From Candidatus Cloacimonadota bacterium (lineage in GTDB: Bacteria > Cloacimonadota > Cloacimonadia > Cloacimonadales > JAJBBL01), in the NCBI GenBank assembly GCA_019429305.1, contig JAHYIR010000001.1, forward strand, positions 248,001 to 312,000: 64,000 nucleotides of DNA, read 5' to 3'. The translations under genes were made by a program, and so were the position numbers. Positions 14,803 to 26,030 of the stretch are shown here, piece after piece. The notes beneath the pieces were generated by a model. It was not told the origin of the DNA. It was given only the letters and a program-made list of their open reading frames with translations, and made no database searches. Each line of letters begins with the position of its first letter. Position 1 is the first letter of the stretch.

Positions 14803-17103
14803 CTATTTCAAAAATAACATCTTTCTCGTTCTTTCGTATCCATCAGTTCTTAAGCGGTAGAGATATACCCCGCTTGGTAAATCCTTCCCTTTGGCAGTCA
14901 GAGGATTCCAAACTATAGAATGTTCTCCTTGAGGTAATTTTTCATTAATTAGCTCAGTAATTCTCTGTCCTTTGATATTGTAGATTTCTAATAATACTAC
15001 CCCCTCTCTCTCTAAGATGAATTTTATAGTAGTTTCGGGATTGAAGGGATTGGGATAGTTCTGCAATAATCTTGGACTTTTGGGTACTACGACAAGATCA
15101 TCACCAACACTTAAATCATGACTATATTCGAAAACCCCTATACTTGTTGCGTATGAACATGCGAAAAGATACTTGAGATCATTCGACTCACGGAAAAATA
15201 TCCAGTTACTGCGAACATTATGAAGGAAATAGGTGAATGGTGCGATTATTCCGTTAGGTTCGTTACTCAGATCGAACACAAAAATTGCTGAACCGGGACT
15301 TTGATACAAAAGATCATCTTTAATATAGGGAACACCGGGCATAGGGATTTGAAAGACTAATTCCGGATTTACCGGATCGGATAGGGAATAGAAATCTGTA
15401 TTAGAATATCCACTACTGGAAGGATCATAGATAGTGAGATAATCACCCGTCATCTTAATCAGCGGATCTGGGTGAAACACGAAGTAATCAATCGTATTTT
15501 GCAGCAGAGGGGCATTATCATTCATTCCCGAAAATATACTTAGTCTATGCCAATTCAAGTTACCCCTTCTTGTTAGGCAGTACATATAGTCATTATCAAT
15601 AACATAATATACATCGTTTTCTAAATAAGAGAGATCCATCTCAAAGAGTAACTCGTATTGACCCTCCTCACTGATATCATACTTACGCAGTATATTTTGA
15701 TACCAGGGCTTGATGTATAATGCATCAGGATCTGACTCGTAACGGTTAACTAAAACATTTTGCCCCGACCAAAAACTAATATCTATACTATTTCTCAGAT
15801 GAGGATTGAAAGGGTCCGAGACATCATATACCTCTATATCCCCGAACTCGTAATTGCTGCAATCTCTTAAGATCAAGAGATTATTTACAAGATAGTCCCG
15901 AAGTGAGACTGCTAACTTTGGTACACCCTCGAAAATTCTGGTGATCTCTATTATATTCAAGGGATTTGAGATATCGTGAACTCTGAAACCTGAGGTGACT
16001 TTATCACTTCTTACAAATACATGATTATCATTAAGATAGATGTAAGCATTCATACGGTGGTCGGATGTCGTATCGATATAATGAAATTCACTGTCTTCAT
16101 AGCGAAATCTCTGAATCCCCTCACGCAGAACCGTAAAATATACATTATCTTCCCAATCGGCAGCATCTATCCCTTCACAGAAAAAGAAATCATCTTCAGA
16201 AATTTGCTGAATCGTATAATCGTTCATATCAATTGCTACTAAATTAAAAGGATTTAAATAGAGCAGATAATTGTTCATAATGTAAAAAGTGTCACCGAAG
16301 ATAATCATCTCATTTTCGAGCCAGGGTATGTTATATAATAATTGCCAGTCGTTCAGATCAGTCACATCCCAAAAAGAGATTTCACGTGTATTATTGAAAA
16401 TCAATGTTGAGTCCTCATAAGAACCTTGATGGTAAATACCGTAGTTATGTGCTTCTGATATGTTGCCCGAACCGACTACACTTACATTGTCAATATCGCT
16501 GATATCGTATATCAGATGATCAAAATGATCCACTCTCGATAAGATAAGAGTATCACTGAAAAGAAGGTGCGGGTATGTTGGTATCGGATTAGGATGTATT
16601 ATCTCCAAAGCGGTGTTGATAAGAGGATTAAAGGGAGGCCACGCTACTGTGTTTACGATAAAATGGTCATTTAAAACGTTCAGATAGGGAACCCACGGTA
16701 CATTATCATCAAATTCCAATGATTGGACAACAAAGGGTTCGGAAGGGTTGGTAACGTCGATCTTGTGGATCATAGCGTTGAAGGGATCATACTGTCTCGA
16801 TGATGTTCCAATAAACAAATGGTTCCCTATCTTTTCCATTGTCCAGGGTTCAATGATAAGTTTTCTGGTCAGCAGCGTCAGACTTCCGTCAACTTCCATA
16901 GAATATACCTCCAATCCATATCGAGTCAGAGTGTATAGATAAGGATATTCGATGATAATGTTGTTGACTCGATTGGTTCCTATTCGTCTGTTCGCTATGG
17001 AAAACTCATTTACCTTCTCTATCTGAAAATCTACTGAAATTAGATCAAAGGTTATTAAGTATAACATGACCATTATTATCGGTACATATCTTGATTTATC
17101 CAT
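14803..17103 (-). CDS. Secreted LVIVD-like repeat protein with sorting domain (cassette copy 1)
   Basis: Exported 766-residue protein, last gene of a duplicated cassette. After a signal peptide (about 1-24) it is composed of propeller-type repeats marked by phrases such as DVTNPSEPFVV, DVSDPFNPHL, LSDPVNPEL, resembling the LVIVD/beta-propeller surface repeats. The sorting domain occupies about 680-766 (LLQNYPNPFNPETTIKF, YNIKGQ, RKMLFLK). The part of its DNA coding the sorting domain, 14969-15060, is 90/92 identical to the matching part of the gene at 18067-20373, whereas the rest of the two proteins is much more diverged. GGAGAAGG ribosome site directly after a strong hairpin. Confidence 0.82.
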   Translation of the reverse strand: MDKSRYVPIIMVMLYLITFDLISVDFQIEKVNEFSIANRRIGTNRVNNIIIEYPYLYTLTRYGLEVYSMEVDGSLTLLTRKLIIEPWTMEKIGNHLFIGTSSRQYDPFNAMIHKIDVTNPSEPFVVQSLEFDDNVPWVPYLNVLNDHFIVNTVAWPPFNPLINTALEIIHPNPIPTYPHLLFSDTLILSRVDHFDHLIYDISDIDNVSVVGSGNISEAHNYGIYHQGSYEDSTLIFNNTREISFWDVTDLNDWQLLYNIPWLENEMIIFGDTFYIMNNYLLYLNPFNLVAIDMNDYTIQQISEDDFFFCEGIDAADWEDNVYFTVLREGIQRFRYEDSEFHYIDTTSDHRMNAYIYLNDNHVFVRSDKVTSGFRVHDISNPLNIIEITRIFEGVPKLAVSLRDYLVNNLLILRDCSNYEFGDIEVYDVSDPFNPHLRNSIDISFWSGQNVLVNRYESDPDALYIKPWYQNILRKYDISEEGQYELLFEMDLSYLENDVYYVIDNDYMYCLTRRGNLNWHRLSIFSGMNDNAPLLQNTIDYFVFHPDPLIKMTGDYLTIYDPSSSGYSNTDFYSLSDPVNPELVFQIPMPGVPYIKDDLLYQSPGSAIFVFDLSNEPNGIIAPFTYFLHNVRSNWIFFRESNDLKYLFACSYATSIGVFEYSHDLSVGDDLVVVPKSPRLLQNYPNPFNPETTIKFILEREGVVLLEIYNIKGQRITELINEKLPQGEHSIVWNPLTAKGKDLPSGVYLYRLRTDGYERTRKMLFLK

Positions 17104-17122
17104 AACCTTCTCCTTTTAATGT

Positions 17123-17155
17123 ATCCCCTGAAGAGTAAAAAACTCTTCAGGGGAT
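17123..17155 (-). promoter_or_regulatory. Intra-cassette hairpin before the large secreted gene (copy 1)
   Basis: Perfect 14-bp stem ATCCCCTGAAGAGT / ACTCTTCAGGGGAT with a 5-base loop, between the small secreted gene and the large secreted gene. In the transcribed direction no T run follows; instead the ribosome site comes 10-15 bases later. It is therefore more like an RNA stabiliser, processing site or translational control element than a full terminator. The second cassette has an equivalent palindrome at the same place. Confidence 0.6.
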
Positions 17156-17173
17156 ATTGGTAATCGATTATTA

Positions 17174-17557
17174 TCATTCATCCCCGCCACAGGGAGGGTC
17201 TGAAGTTGGATTAACAGGTGGGCTCAAATCTATGAAGAAATAGTTATTATAACCCAAGTTAGTCCTGATTTCTCTAAATGATGCTCCGTGTGGAAAAGTA
17301 CCGGCAGTCACTCTAACCGCATGTAATTGATTTCCGAAATCTAAAATCATAGAATGATAGCGTGTGTCCGGAAGAACTATGACTGTCCATTCTCTTTCTA
17401 GTTCCCATTGGCTCTGGTATGTTTCTTTAATTTCAAGTTTTAGCCAAGCTACTCCGACTCCAACCATATCAAATTCGAAGTTATACTGGATTTGGGCAAA
17501 GAGTTCAACACTACCTAATAGTATCAACACCACTACTAACATTATTAGACATTTCAT
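17174..17557 (-). CDS. Small secreted protein (cassette copy 1)
   Basis: 127-residue exported protein of unknown function. ATG 17557 is chosen because GGAGGTG lies 5 bases upstream and the signal peptide (hydrophobic LIMLVVVLILLG, ending near LFAQ) then starts at the N-terminus; a longer frame from 17587 would put ten polar residues before it. The mature part is beta-rich and aromatic, ending in PPCGGDE. There is no sorting domain. It is followed by a hairpin and then the large secreted protein, and preceded by an 83-residue ORF and a conserved hairpin. Confidence 0.7.
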   Translation of the reverse strand: MKCLIMLVVVLILLGSVELFAQIQYNFEFDMVGVGVAWLKLEIKETYQSQWELEREWTVIVLPDTRYHSMILDFGNQLHAVRVTAGTFPHGASFREIRTNLGYNNYFFIDLSPPVNPTSDPPCGGDE

Positions 17558-17569
17558 TTCACACCTCCA

Positions 17570-17643
17570 TTTATTTGATTTCCTCAATTGTCAGGTCTTA
17601 CTCTCGAGTTGTAGTAAGACCGGTCTGCCTGATGAATTTGTTT
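17570..17643 (-). promoter_or_regulatory. Conserved 74-nt element with hairpin upstream of small secreted gene (copy 1)
   Basis: Matches 20850-20923 at 70 of 74 positions. It contains a perfect hairpin GGTCTTACT (17594-17602) / AGTAAGACC (17613-17621) with a 10-base loop containing CTCGAG, next to the dyad AGACCGGTCT. It covers the end of the 83-residue ORF and reaches the ribosome site of the small secreted gene, so it could couple or gate translation of the two. Function is inferred from conservation only. Confidence 0.5.
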
Positions 17644-17849
17644 CTCGGATTGGGAAAGAATCTCTGAAGGCAATTATTGTTAGAAATGTGATGTTTAGTG
17701 ATACGATGAACATAGTTGTTAACACTCCTTGTATTTGTTGAGAAAATAACGTTGGCAGCTTTTATCCCGGAAATATAAAAAGAGTATACAGGATTATCTT
17801 TAGGTGTCTTTCTCTTATGTAATAAAGCGGTAAAAGATGTCGATAACAT
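17598..17849 (-). CDS. Small ORF with conserved C-terminus (cassette copy 1)
   Basis: 83 codons from ATG 17849, which has GGAG at 7-base spacing; a longer frame to 17930 lacks a good ribosome site. No signal peptide or membrane segment is evident, and no family is recognised. The last 23 residues (LxRFFPNPxN then KFIRQTGLTTTRE) are almost identical to the end of the 73-residue ORF at 20878-21099. Over these 23 codons, ten differ between copies: eight silently and two conservatively (Q/H, R/K). That is the pattern of protein-level selection. Upstream the two only share scattered positions (KR...KD...Y, YV...H.IS). Confidence 0.5.
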   Translation of the reverse strand: MLSTSFTALLHKRKTPKDNPVYSFYISGIKAANVIFSTNTRSVNNYVHRITKHHISNNNCLQRFFPNPRNKFIRQTGLTTTRE

Positions 17850-17960
17850 TTTTACACTCCAACCATTCATTACTGTCGTAATAAGAGAGATAGGTTTAAA
17901 TTCTCTAAAGCAGGTACATTGTGACGACATGATATATCCCTTTTATCTTCTCGGTGTTGA

Positions 17961-18006
17961 CTTCGTCGAGCTCGGAAGCAGCCACGAAGAAGTGATTTCC
18001 TCGGTT
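17961..18006 (+). repeat. Dispersed 45-bp repeat copy
   Basis: CGTCGAGCTCGGAAGCAGCCACGAAGAAG-type element, followed by TTTCCTCGGTT (described in parts). Related copies lie at 8609-8653 (inverted) and 25833-25876. Located in the gap between the large gene of copy 2 and the small ORF of copy 1. Confidence 0.55.
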
Positions 18007-18066
18007 GGCATTTTTGTTTATCTCAAATCTCCATTAGTTTTATATATAGAATGAATAAGAAAGAAC

Positions 18067-20373
18067 CTATTTTATGAGAGCGATTTTTCTAACTTCCCGA
18101 TAGCCGCAATCTGTAATCATTTGATAGAAATAGATACCTGAAGGCATCTGCCTGTTCCTGTCATCGAGACCATTCCAGATTACTTGATGTTCACCGGCAT
18201 CTCTTTGTTCATCAACAAGTGTTTTAACACGCTGCCCTTTGATATTGTAGATTTCTAATAATACTTCCCCCTCTCTCTCTAAGATGAATTTTATAGTAGT
18301 TTCGGGATTGAACGGATTGGGATAGTTTTGAGCCAGGGAAGTTTTTAATGGGATTTGAATGACATTTTCATCTGTTGATGAAGTAAACTCAAGGTTATAT
18401 CGCCTAATATAGCTACTTGCAGCGTCTGCATCAGAAACATATAGTTTCGATAATTCAGGTATAAAATCGATATAATAGGCATATGTTGTATCAAATTGAT
18501 AACTACCCAGATAGTGCATACCTGAATAATCGAAGGAATAAAAATCCCTCGATGTAAAAAGAAAATTAGCCATATAGAAGATATTCAAGTTGGTAAATTG
18601 ATGGATAAATACCGGAGGAAAACTCAAGAATTCTATTTCCTCTATAAAATCCGGGAAGGAATGATGATACAGACCAACACTAACTGACATATCATGCCCA
18701 GTAGGTTGTTTATAGAGAACCAATAGATCTTCATGAAACATCAAGGAGTTATTATAATTGCCATAAAGGGAGATGTTGAACTCATGTAACAAATGATATG
18801 GAGCTTGATAGTCGAAAATTAGAATTCTGTTAGTAGTGAAACAATAAACATAGAGATAATCAGGAGGACCGACGTCTTTATGATTAAGAATTTTTGAAAT
18901 GCTGCTGTTAGGTATGTATATTGTAGCTTCATCGATAAGTTCATATTCATCATTAATCGAAAGAACCCAGTATGATTCTTCCATATCTTTCCTTACCAAC
19001 AAATAAGGATCTTTCCAATAAATCCATGGTATTGTTGGATGGATGTTTTCCAGAGAGTAATCCGAAATGTATTCTATACTATCATCATCATAACGATAAA
19101 TCCTCAGGTTATAATTCTCCTCTGTTGATTCGATGTTCATTAGAACATTAAAAAACAGAGAATCATTTGCAGCATAGAATCTGTGGTGAAAAAGATCGTC
19201 ACTGAGTTGGATTATTTCTGATTCCTCATTGATATCAAAATAGTACAGATCTCCATTAACGGTGAATAAAAAGTATTTATCCAGAAGAAATCTAGTGCCT
19301 ATATGTTTATTCTTTAAAATGTCGTTTACAGTTATTGTATCGGGAAAATGATTCAAGTCTATTTTAGCTATTCCTTTCTTCTGACGTCCGAAATAGAGGT
19401 AGTTGTTATTTACTATTAGTGGCTTTTTTATACATTGAAGACTATCATCATCTATATATGTATTCAGCAGAACAGGAGAATAAGGGTTGTTGAGATCAAA
19501 TACATAGAGCATGGAACTATCATTCATTATAATCAAATAGTCTTCGTAGATAAGAGCATTGTTAAAAGCATTGTGAGAAGGAAGATGCGGAAAATCTTCT
19601 ATGATCGACAATATTACCGGATTGTCATGATCAGATATATCAACTAAAATAACTCTGGTGTTTTTCAGGATGATCAAGAGATCATCAACAAACTCATATC
19701 TGTTCAATTCGGTATCATTTGAGTATATACGACTCAATTCTACCGGATTGTTAACATCGCTGATATCTTGGATGGATACATAAGTAGAATCCGGATAGTT
19801 TATCATTTGCATAAAAAGCAGATCGTTGTTTACCGCGAAATAACCACCGGTTAGTAGATTATTGGTGATCGGTTCAAAGGTTTCTCGATCAATTACATGT
19901 GTATGAATTGAACCTGTCATATTATAGAAGATGTAATCGTCATTTAACTGTAGATTGAATATACAATGCCACGGATCGATGATTTCAAGAGAATTAGTTT
20001 CTATAATACTGTCGCCGGTTATCTCTAATGCTCTGATTATGCTTTTTAACGTAGAGCTAAGATCTTCAACATTTACCAGCACCTGATATATCGTATTTCC
20101 ATAAGCAACGAGAGGAGTTACGGAGTAATTATAGTTATATATTTCGTAAGAAAGCAATTCCAATTCACCGTTATCATGTATCGAATATTCTTCAAATGCG
20201 TACTTACTGTCGATAAAGAGCCGATCATCTATTATTACGATAGATGATTCGTAATAAGAATTAACTCTGTATATATCACTGTGATACTCGATGGTGCTGA
20301 TATCTGGTATGTCGTAAGTTAGCAAAGTTACCGCCAGATATAGCAGATAGATTACTAATAGTGTTTTTTTCAT
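18067..20373 (-). CDS. Secreted repeat protein with sorting domain (cassette copy 2)
   Basis: Exported 768-residue paralogue of the protein at 14803-17103, almost the same length. Signal peptide about 1-18 (LLVIYLLYLAVTLLT). The body is an Asp/Tyr/Ile-rich propeller-like repeat region, with DISDVNNPVELS and DISDHDNPVILS as recognisable LVIVD-type phrases. The sorting domain is residues about 680-768 (LAQNYPNPFNPETTIKF, YNIKGQRVKTLV, then GYREVRKIALIK, a variant last strand). GGAGGAAG ribosome site immediately after a 34-base perfect palindrome. Likely surface-displayed; ligand unknown. Confidence 0.82.
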   Translation of the reverse strand: MKKTLLVIYLLYLAVTLLTYDIPDISTIEYHSDIYRVNSYYESSIVIIDDRLFIDSKYAFEEYSIHDNGELELLSYEIYNYNYSVTPLVAYGNTIYQVLVNVEDLSSTLKSIIRALEITGDSIIETNSLEIIDPWHCIFNLQLNDDYIFYNMTGSIHTHVIDRETFEPITNNLLTGGYFAVNNDLLFMQMINYPDSTYVSIQDISDVNNPVELSRIYSNDTELNRYEFVDDLLIILKNTRVILVDISDHDNPVILSIIEDFPHLPSHNAFNNALIYEDYLIIMNDSSMLYVFDLNNPYSPVLLNTYIDDDSLQCIKKPLIVNNNYLYFGRQKKGIAKIDLNHFPDTITVNDILKNKHIGTRFLLDKYFLFTVNGDLYYFDINEESEIIQLSDDLFHHRFYAANDSLFFNVLMNIESTEENYNLRIYRYDDDSIEYISDYSLENIHPTIPWIYWKDPYLLVRKDMEESYWVLSINDEYELIDEATIYIPNSSISKILNHKDVGPPDYLYVYCFTTNRILIFDYQAPYHLLHEFNISLYGNYNNSLMFHEDLLVLYKQPTGHDMSVSVGLYHHSFPDFIEEIEFLSFPPVFIHQFTNLNIFYMANFLFTSRDFYSFDYSGMHYLGSYQFDTTYAYYIDFIPELSKLYVSDADAASSYIRRYNLEFTSSTDENVIQIPLKTSLAQNYPNPFNPETTIKFILEREGEVLLEIYNIKGQRVKTLVDEQRDAGEHQVIWNGLDDRNRQMPSGIYFYQMITDCGYREVRKIALIK

Positions 20374-20389
20374 TATCTTCCTCCAATGA

Positions 20390-20423
20390 AATATTGCGGG
20401 TATCTTAAGATACCCGCAATATT
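20390..20423 (-). promoter_or_regulatory. 34-base perfect palindrome before the large secreted gene (copy 2)
   Basis: AATATTGCGGGTATCTT followed directly by its exact reverse complement, between the small and the large secreted gene. On the transcript the ribosome site GGAGGAAG starts about 5 bases after it, with no T run, so it may shield the ribosome site or stabilise the upstream RNA rather than terminate. It matches the position of the hairpin at 17123-17155 but not its sequence. Confidence 0.6.
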
Positions 20424-20434
20424 TAACTATGTAA

Positions 20435-20836
20435 TCAATAAGCTTGAACCCACCAGATGTCTATCCATGCGGCTCCGTCAAAATCAGCATAATAATCAGT
20501 ACCTCTGAATTTTACTATTACCTCGCAATAGTCATCAATAGTGAAAGGATCTGGAATTGTGGTAAAATTATAATAGTATCCTCCAGTATATTGGCTGTAA
20601 ACATTAAACTGATAAATCTGGGGAGCTCCTGATCCTGGAATAGGATTCAAAACAAATCCCAAATTTTGACCGGGAGGGGCAGGCTGCCAAATATTGAGGA
20701 AATGATTATAAAGCCATATTTCTCCTTGTACATGATTTGTTTTGGATCCCTGTTGTTCTTCAAAAGTTATGATGTCCGAGTTTAATAAAACACTAAACAT
20801 GAGTAGTGTTAATGTAAGTAAAAGTACGCGTTTCAT
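20435..20836 (-). CDS. Small secreted protein (cassette copy 2)
   Basis: 133-residue exported protein; signal peptide about 1-20 (RVLLLTLTLLMFSVLLNS). The mature part is rich in Tyr, Trp, Phe and Gly and probably an all-beta domain; it ends WIDIWWVQAY. No family is recognised and there is no sorting domain. Its place in the cassette equals that of the 127-residue protein at 17174-17557, but I cannot see clear sequence similarity between the two, so this slot may hold variable cargo. AGGAGGTC ribosome site. Confidence 0.68.
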   Translation of the reverse strand: MKRVLLLTLTLLMFSVLLNSDIITFEEQQGSKTNHVQGEIWLYNHFLNIWQPAPPGQNLGFVLNPIPGSGAPQIYQFNVYSQYTGGYYYNFTTIPDPFTIDDYCEVIVKFRGTDYYADFDGAAWIDIWWVQAY

Positions 20837-20849
20837 AACAGACCTCCTA

Positions 20850-20923
20850 TTTATTTGATTTCCTCGATTGTTAGGTCTTACTCTCGAGTTGTAGTAAGAC
20901 CGGTCTGCCGAATGAATTTGTTT
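20850..20923 (-). promoter_or_regulatory. Conserved 74-nt element with hairpin upstream of small secreted gene (copy 2)
   Basis: Second copy of the element at 17570-17643, with the identical hairpin GGTCTTACT / AGTAAGACC (20874-20901). The 37-base core from 20873 is unchanged between copies. It overlaps the end of the 73-residue ORF and runs to the ribosome site of the downstream gene. Confidence 0.5.
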
Positions 20924-21099
20924 TTGGGGTTTGGAAAAAACCTGTGCAATAGCAGTGGGAGAGTATCGGACTCAGAAGAGATGATATGATCATTTGAAAC
21001 CAATACATATCTATAGGAGTGCAGACATCTTCTGACTATATCTATCAACAATAGTATAGATAGATAGATATCTTTCTTATTGGTTCTTTTGACTTCCAT
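20878..21099 (-). CDS. Small ORF with conserved C-terminus (cassette copy 2)
   Basis: 73 codons from ATG 21099 (GGGGA about 6 bases upstream), the first gene after the promoter at 21154-21182, with a predicted 45-base leader. It begins MEVKRTNKKD and has an Ile/Leu-rich stretch, then the conserved ending NKFIRQTGLTTTRE shared with the ORF at 17598-17849. Position first in the operon and silent-change bias support a real gene, perhaps a regulatory leader protein or a chaperone for the secreted products; no function can be read from sequence. Confidence 0.5.
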   Translation of the reverse strand: MEVKRTNKKDIYLSILLLIDIVRRCLHSYRYVLVSNDHIISSESDTLPLLLHRFFPNPKNKFIRQTGLTTTRE

Positions 21100-24362: not shown

Positions 24363-25769
24363 ATGGATTATAAGATCAAAGATATTCAATTAGCTAAATT
24401 TGGTAGGCAGGAGATACTGTTAGCCGAAGCAGAAATGCCCGGGTTGATAGCTCTTCGTGATAAATACCGAGCTACTAAACCACTTGCTGGTGCCAGAATC
24501 AGCGGAAGTTTACACATGACGATCCAGACAGCAGTTTTGATCGAAACTCTCAGGCAGTTAGGAGCTGAAGTACGCTGGGCAAGCTGTAACATTTATTCTA
24601 CACAGGATCATGCAGCTGCAGCTATGGCAGAGTGTGGAGTTCCCGTCTTTGCCTGGAAGGGGGAGAATCTAGAAGAATATTGGTGGTGCACTCTTCAGGC
24701 ACTCATTTTTCCCGATGGGGGCGGACCTGATCTCATTGTTGATGATGGGGGAGATGCCACTTTAGCAGTACATTTAGGATATGAACTGGAAGAAGAGCTT
24801 CATAAAACCGGAAAAATTCCTGCTCTTGAAATCAATGATAAAGAACGAACGATCCTTACTAAACTCTTGATCGAAGGTCTGGAGAAAGATCCTGATCGCT
24901 GGCATAATGTCGTTGCAAAAATGAAGGGTGTCAGTGAAGAGACTACAACAGGGGTTAATCGACTGTATCAGATGTTCAAAGAGAAAAAGCTTTTATTTCC
25001 AGCTATCAATGTCAATGACTCAGTGACAAAATCGAAATTTGATAATCTCTATGGTTGCCGAGAGTCGTTAGCAGATGGAATCAAGCGGGGAACCGATATC
25101 ATGGTTGCCGGTAAGGTTGTTGTTATCTGTGGTTACGGAGATGTTGGCAAGGGTTGTGCTCAATCTATGCGAGGATTTGGTGCCCGAGTTATCATTACGG
25201 AAATCGATCCGATCTGTGCTCTGCAAGCTGCAATGGAAGGATATGAAGTTAGAGTATTGGATGATGTCGTCTCCGAAGCAGATATTGTGGTTACAGCAAC
25301 CGGAAATTGTGATGTGGTAACTGTCGAACATGTTTTGAAGATGAAAAATAACACAATTCTCTGTAATATCGGACATTTTGATAATGAGATACAGGTGGAT
25401 GAACTATATAATCTGGCTGGTGTGCGTAAAGAGAATATTAAACCTCAAGTAGATTTGATACATTTACCGAATGGGAGAGCGATCATCCTCTTGTCGGAAG
25501 GCAGATTGGTTAATCTCGGTAATGCTACCGGACACCCTTCCTTCGTGATGAGTAATTCCTTTACCAATCAAGTACTGGCTCAAATTGACCTTTGGCAGCA
25601 TGATCATCAGATAGGTGTCTATACGCTGCCTAAGTTTTTAGATGAGGAAGTAGCCCGGCTTCATTTAGAGAAGATAGGGGTGAATTTAACTAAACTAACG
25701 CCAAAACAGGCAAAGTATATTGGTGTACCTGAGAATGGACCGTATAAACCCGATCATTACAGGTATTGA
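24363..25769 (+). CDS. ahcY: Adenosylhomocysteinase
   Basis: Hydrolyses S-adenosylhomocysteine to adenosine and homocysteine, recycling the product of methylation. 468 residues. Conserved blocks: [36 protein letters not shown]-binding [11 protein letters not shown] near residue 257, and the C-terminal end KPDHYRY, diagnostic for the family. The ribosome site is modest (AAGG). The leader of about 80 bases has a short CCTAT/ATAGG hairpin followed by T5, but nothing that I can match to SAH or SAM riboswitch consensus. Apparently transcribed alone. Confidence 0.97.
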
Positions 25770-25784
25770 TGAGTAATGAGATAA

Positions 25785-26030
25785 ATTGTATTGTCGACCC
25801 TTTGTTGGCTTCACCAACCCTGTCCTGAGCTTGACGAAGGATCGGAAGCAGCCACGGAGAAGCGTTCCCTCGGTTCGATACAATCCGCAAAAGAGCGGAT
25901 CACTCAGGGTGACAATAGTTGGTAGGACATAGTTGATAATACATACTAATGTCATCCTGAGTGTTCTACCGTATTCTGCTTGCTATTCTTAACGGTAGAA
26001 TGTATCGAAGGATAAATTTTCAAACACTTA
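25785..26030. repeat. Dispersed repeat block between ahcY and the sugar-dehydrogenase gene
   Basis: Contains CCTGTCCTGAGCTTGACGAAGG (in pieces), the GAAGCAGCCACGGAGAAG element (25833-25876), the inverted CACTCAGGGTGACA and a second unit GTCATCCTGAGTGTTCT ending ATGTATCGAAGGATAAA, which recurs at 10913-10980. Short ORFs across it are repeat artefacts. Confidence 0.6.

Follow-up and report, generated by a model that had tools for sequence, protein, structure and literature searches.

What keeps the ends of two small open reading frames (ORFs) alike in a genome of Candidatus Cloacimonadota? The two lie on the minus strand of a stretch of 64,000 nucleotides (nt) of contig JAHYIR010000001.1 (positions 248,001 to 312,000; hereafter the window). 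According to the ORF list and the sequence, leader ORF A, at 17598..17849, has 83 codons up to a shared TAA, with an ATG start and GGAG upstream, and leader ORF B, at 20878..21099, has 73 codons up to that TAA. Their last 23 codons, at 17598-17669 and 20878-20949, encode the peptides LQRFFPNPRNKFIRQTGLTTTRE and LHRFFPNPKNKFIRQTGLTTTRE. An earlier inspection of the letters alone (the sequence-only reading) had noticed that these tails differ mostly in silent positions, and we could confirm this: ten of the 23 codons differ, eight of them synonymously, and the only replacements are Q/H and R/K. The analysis presented here points, with a probability of about 0.6, to the following answer: each of the two ORF ends represents a copy of an element encoding a leader peptide, located 5' of secreted-protein operons across the Cloacimonadota, in which the ribosome would reach a hairpin that may act as a switch.

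The two copies by themselves do not carry this answer. The 11 base differences in the tails are distributed over codon positions 1, 2 and 3 as 2, 1 and 8, and the binomial probability of at least eight of the 11 falling on one named position is 0.009 (0.026 for any of the three). As evidence for selection this bias is suggestive only, and two copies constitute weak evidence because the similarity is not limited to the tails but spans the stop codon and the ribosome-binding site as far as the ATG of the following gene. The idea that only the C-terminus is alike has to be given up: the similar block (89% over 98 ungapped bases) continues beyond the TAA, through a perfect inverted repeat of 9 base pairs (bp) and a GGAGG, up to that ATG. 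These facts could also be accounted for by a tandem duplication, of which the two copies would be leftovers, with a promoter and a ribosome-binding site keeping the upstream DNA alike and chance producing the silent bias. The duplication of the operon is indeed clear, the two-copy bias is weak when taken alone over three positions, and the similarity does reach the ATG. Nevertheless, we regard this explanation as improbable, since the small proteins encoded directly downstream are only 16% identical between the copies and have thus diverged far more than the leader element, which is 89% identical. Moreover, it is contradicted by the wider survey described below, in which other genera have the motif and a covarying hairpin in the corresponding position, before other genes.

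Within its own genome the 23-residue tail has two matches only, both being the window copies, and a DNA search likewise returned only two full copies of the element. A covariance-model search uncovered another complete element, the third and more diverged, on a different contig (G000:C31:13693-13750). It contains a run of ten C, has a leader ATG that is out of frame with the conserved motif, and is located 5' of a gene for a large secreted protein. A third short DNA match, at locus L003, was rejected as chance, as it falls inside the coding sequence of a secreted protein, presumably a von Willebrand-like one.

Among 58 relatives searched, a clear homologue of the small protein was present in four genomes (G007, G008, G025 and G041), each time adjoining a homologue of the large protein; in genome G045 and at a second locus of G041 the large-protein homologue is not preceded by a small one. 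The region 5' of the small gene contains AAA[C/T]AA[A/G]TTCAT in G007, G041 and G008 and then, in each case, a hairpin with different letters that nonetheless pair; in G025 the contig ends too soon for this region to be included. A first covariance model (R1), built from five hand-registered rows and with pair counts that are partly given by construction, yielded 29 matches at an expectation value (E) of at most 0.5 in 17 of the 124 genomes of the phylum. The second model (R2) was made from 18 matches from 17 sources, with the R1 match G100:C85 kept out as it looked like a terminator after a gene. It gave 92 matches at E <= 0.1, of which 65 were at E <= 0.01, in 31 of the 124 genomes and 18 of the 50 genera, with at most 11 per genome. 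Leaving out 13 matches with E between 0.031 and 0.094, 79 loci were read; the core of one (G015:C64) matched poorly, and without it 78 loci form the set used throughout. Weak DNA matches in relatives were rejected as copies, being mostly AT-rich sequence near a ribosome-binding site or unrelated AAACAAATTCATC words without a hairpin. A mobile repeat, resembling an insertion sequence or a repetitive extragenic palindrome, was considered since several copies lie at contig ends; it was provisionally set aside because orientation and spacing to the ATG vary little within a genome and the gene that follows usually encodes a secreted protein. There was no plasmid match to the element DNA, and searches with an exact word were negative too, for the hairpin in the genome_contigs collection and for the element in viral_contigs. 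The element scores below the gathering threshold of every Rfam 15 family, the sole match in the window being a tRNA.

The comparison of the 78 loci revealed a short, strongly constrained peptide. NKF is encoded exactly in 73 of them, in what we call the NKF frame, and the usual form is [G/C]-K-N-K-F-[I/T], followed by a stop or a short tail. The residue after NKF is I in 54 loci and T in 21, and the commonest sets of six residues are GKNKFI (33 loci) and CKNKFT (8 loci). When one copy per genome was drawn (24 genomes, 200 draws), the alignment cells of K-N-K-F that departed from the commonest base numbered on average 1.4, 2.6 and 26.7 at codon positions 1, 2 and 3. In the 60 loci outside the R2 training set the corresponding numbers were 3, 7 and 70, and 55 of these 60 read NKF. 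The third-position changes are mostly AAT/AAC, AAA/AAG and TTC/TTT and are therefore silent. Selection of the KNKF[I/T] motif as a peptide is thus supported, because the variation in K-N-K-F lies overwhelmingly at third codon positions. The selection on the peptide proposed in the sequence-only reading is in this way upheld through the relatives, with KNKF[I/T] rather than the 23 residues as the selected unit. The sequence-only reading had named stops within the 23 codons of homologues as refuting, and by this measure the full tail falls as a unit, given that a stop codon directly follows NKF plus one residue in 38 of the 78 loci; only the NKFI core survives the comparison. The codons for the TGLTTTRE part of the tail belong to the hairpin; this part is not conserved in other genera and is not selected as a peptide. 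Among the three roles suggested earlier for the C-terminus (tag, binding motif or leader peptide), the last fits best.

The frame around the motif is kept as well. Of 72 loci, 52 have no stop codon in the NKF frame over the 75 nt that precede the motif, as compared to 14 and 3 for the other two frames. Reading in the NKF frame ends no more than 13 nt from the hairpin, within it or past it at 69 of 76 loci (other frames 48 and 12). Leaders are short or of medium length: several loci have a tiny ORF of 5-14 codons (such as MNKFI, MYYIGKNKFI and MLILIGKNKFI), MKNLIIIIGKNKFI being another tiny leader, and in some loci an ORF of about 55-60 codons is intact, with Shine-Dalgarno sequence and ATG.

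The motif is followed by a hairpin. Directly after the motif the best stem scores at least 18 in 94% of the 78 loci versus 4% of 75 control stretches taken 160 nt downstream, and in 68 of the 78 loci none of 20 shuffles reached the observed stem score. The stems measure 9-14 bp and the leader stop falls just before, inside or after them. The arms often resemble CCTCTCTA / TAGAGAGG, yet they change together: in the 18-row R2 alignment, which was fitted to the model, 158 of 158 cells are paired, with double changes in all nine pairs, as against 41-57% in slid controls, and the covariation score of this model-fitted alignment is 1.02 versus 0.29 after shuffling. Some leaders hold further structures. 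In G041 (loci L109, L110 and L058) and G091 (L111) the leader extends over about 230 nt, with two extra conserved hairpins, CTCGTTCCCGGTTTCCCGAAAACGAG and CTGTTGATTTCTCAACAG, which lie between the KNKFI hairpin and the ATG and are copied before unrelated secreted genes. In genomes G107, G112 and G115 (L172, L179, L191, L159 and L199) there is an inverted repeat right after a run of C, e.g. TTCATAACTTG...CAAGTTATGAA, and another before the main ATG (CTTCTTATAT...ATATAAGGAG), such that the leader RNA of these loci seems to carry several ordered hairpins.

A third feature of the leaders is the C-run. A run of at least six C (6 to 13) is found 20-140 nt before the core in 26 of the 78 loci, against a background of 7 in 711 stretches in which C- and G-runs were both counted. 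In 25 of the 26 no stop codon interrupts the NKF frame between the run and the motif. Judged from the frames only, an off-frame reading would mostly stop 64-100 nt before the core, and the NKF frame would reach or pass the hairpin. The leader in G008 is out of frame across its C-run. Near-identical copies within G007 differ in their C-run, in a manner that would match the expectation for slippage, as seen between assembled paralogous copies and not within a population. Of the 25 C-run loci with a candidate start before the run, which are partly related copies and not independent cases, 16 have this start displaced from the NKF frame by one base in the same sense. Phase variation of the DNA and programmed -1 frameshifting on the run would both agree with this common step. 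Both window copies are without a C-run.

Several results weigh against a translated leader that acts through the hairpin. The loci were collected by a model search that favours the core letters and somewhat inflates the conservation at positions 1 and 2, where a single core change should, by judgement and not by computation, cost little relative to scores of 30-60 bits. In the 25 C-run loci just mentioned, as assembled, 4 candidate starts before the run share the NKF frame and 21 do not, and of the 52 loci without a C-run five have no in-frame start, five have GTG or TTG only and five are cut off. The leader residues before the motif show no third-position bias (141/189/192 differences at positions 1/2/3 in 24 pairs), and neither does the stretch before the C-run (44/28/27 in 11 pairs). 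Five T in a row occur near the hairpin in only 10 of the 78 loci, and a folding test, in which a ribosome on the motif might free the downstream ribosome-binding site, showed no net effect (18 up and 18 down of 60).

The missing third-position bias also bears on the nature of the leader. The upstream ORFs might encode small functional proteins that carry the C-terminus as a binding or export tag, and the intact ORFs of 55-60 codons with their start signals would agree with this. We consider it an unlikely proposal, as the bias is missing outside the motif, the whole ORF amounts to 5-14 codons in several loci and the hairpin would be left unexplained. What is maintained in the leader would seem to be an open frame with a selected motif at its end rather than a whole protein, because the third-position bias is absent outside that motif.

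The findings on the hairpin leave more room for a purely RNA (or DNA) element, consisting of AARAAYAARTTYAY and the hairpin, that is bound by a protein or sets the stability of the mRNA, the frame being incidental. The hairpin is the best-supported structural part, the similarity of the window copies crosses the stop codon, conservation does not extend to the ORF starts or to most of the leader peptide, and the folding of the leader gives no simple ribosome-dependent release. It is harder to reconcile with variation at every third base of one frame, nearly all of it silent, and with the fact that this same frame is kept open upstream and has its stops falling at the hairpin; we hold it to be a rather doubtful alternative. 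Two familiar modes of action were rejected for the hairpin itself: a usual intrinsic terminator, for which the T-run is mostly missing, and sequestration of the ribosome-binding site with release by the ribosome, for which the folding test was neutral. Because the T-run is rare and the folding test neutral, the hairpin might possibly act via Rho, mRNA stability or nascent-peptide pausing.

With the leader-peptide element as the favoured interpretation, a chain of events can be proposed. The leader ORF would be translated, and the ribosome decoding KNKF[I/T], perhaps pausing owing to the nascent peptide, would cover the 5' arm of the hairpin. The hairpin being held open in this way, the expression of the downstream secreted gene would be altered. 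In the roughly one third of the loci that have a C-run, slippage could decide between a ribosome that reaches the hairpin (ON) and one that mostly stops about 70-100 nt short of it (OFF), and the window copies, which would have lost the run or never had it, might be constitutively in the reaching state. The more far-reaching version of this scheme is a phylum-wide regulon of secreted proteins under a KNKF[I/T] leader that often needs slippage on a C-run and whose product, or the ribosome making it, opens the hairpin, thus switching on extracellular proteins cell by cell. We offer this version tentatively, and as a whole it is perhaps too much to expect.

Most of the genes behind the element look secreted. 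A downstream gene was found by rule in 68 of the 78 loci, and 59 of these 68 start with basic residues and a hydrophobic stretch like a signal peptide; by that rough rule 15 of 31 genes in the window would count as secreted too, which constitutes a high background for this enrichment. In the window each copy of the element heads a two-gene unit of a small secreted and a large protein, and the whole operon is tandem-duplicated (14803-20836, with a spacing of about 3.27 kilobases), all parts being on the minus strand. In copy A the NKFI codons identified by codon comparison (AAC AAA TTC ATC) are at 17631..17642. The hairpin, GGTCTTACT / 10-nt loop / AGTAAGACC, occupies 17594..17621, with the leader stop codon within its 3' arm, and is followed by the Shine-Dalgarno sequence GGAGG (17564..17568). 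The small secreted protein gene (17174..17557) encodes 127 amino acids (aa) from the ATG at 17557 with a signal-peptide-like start, and the large secreted protein of 766 aa (14803..17103) has a C-terminus like Por_Secre_tail/FlgD_ig that scores slightly below the Pfam cut-offs. In copy B the NKFI codons (AAC AAA TTC ATT, again from the codon comparison) are at 20911..20922, the hairpin (20874..20901) is identical to hairpin A in all 28 bases, and the GGAGG is at 20843..20847. The small protein of 133 aa, known from the ORF list and a protein search, is encoded at 20435..20836, and the large one of 768 aa at 18067..20373, with FlgD_ig and Por_Secre_tail domains that exceed the Pfam cut-offs. 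Immediately downstream of large gene B (17950-18007) the window contains a dispersed intergenic repeat (TTGACTTCGTCGAGCTCGGAAGCAGCCACGAAGAAGTG..TTCCTCGGTT), which is also present on another contig after a secreted-protein gene (L003, 2430-2482). The short ORFs that overlap on both strands at 25690-25955 suggest a further intergenic repeat.

The arrangement recalls several known systems. SecM, TnaC and ErmCL are nascent peptides that pause the ribosome; each stems from a short leader ORF that carries a conserved motif towards its end, with RNA structure following, 5' of the regulated genes. The element described here likewise has a conserved peptide motif near the leader end with an RNA structure next to it, although pausing is putative and we claim no sequence relation; in TnaC the stop directly follows the motif, which is the case here in only 38 of the 78 loci. 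Phase variation of surface proteins by C-runs is known for Neisseria opc and Bordetella fim, where the runs act in promoter spacing. The position upstream of surface or secreted genes is shared, whereas the run lies inside an upstream ORF in the Cloacimonadota. In the open-access literature (subscription papers and preprints being outside the scope) no paper was found on phase variation or small proteins of Cloacimonadota, and a wider search for leaders gave, among the matches listed, viral and eukaryotic leaders only. As far as the matches listed from the same literature go, the letters KNKFI matched texts on autotransporter signal sequences and statistics only, and Cloacimonetes together with riboswitch a genome paper only.

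The closest parallel in arrangement, to which the open-access literature on leader-peptide phase variation led, is the pil1 attenuator of Streptococcus gallolyticus. According to the report on it, changes in repeat number lengthen a leader peptide, upon which the ribosome prevents a terminator hairpin; the tract consists of GCAGA units, a single operon is concerned, and the stem-loop terminator is backed by mutants and expression data (PMC3894217). Both have a leader ORF before a surface- or secreted-protein operon and a tract inside that ORF whose length, in the element as judged from the frames, would place the stop before or within/after the hairpin, and for both the ribosome is proposed to hold the hairpin open. 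Unlike pil1 as there described, the element has as its tract a C-run, present in 26 of 78 loci, together with a conserved KNKF[I/T] motif and up to 11 loci per genome, is predicted from sequence, and has a hairpin that is rarely accompanied by a T-run (TTTTT in 10 of 78 loci). It resembles pil1 in arrangement and is not filed as a member. Control by leader peptides is as such already known, and we rate the distinct conserved motif and the phylum-wide set of target genes as what is new.

A bias towards silent changes noticed by eye in two copies can thus lead to a real constraint on a peptide. If the interpretation is correct, an almost uncultured phylum would possess a family of regulatory leaders that is unnamed in the libraries searched, and a candidate ribosome-pausing motif would be added. 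A single switch that depends on translation would govern many unrelated secreted-protein genes, and a slippage tract would often provide for variation from cell to cell; it would also become testable which extracellular proteins of these bacteria switch together.

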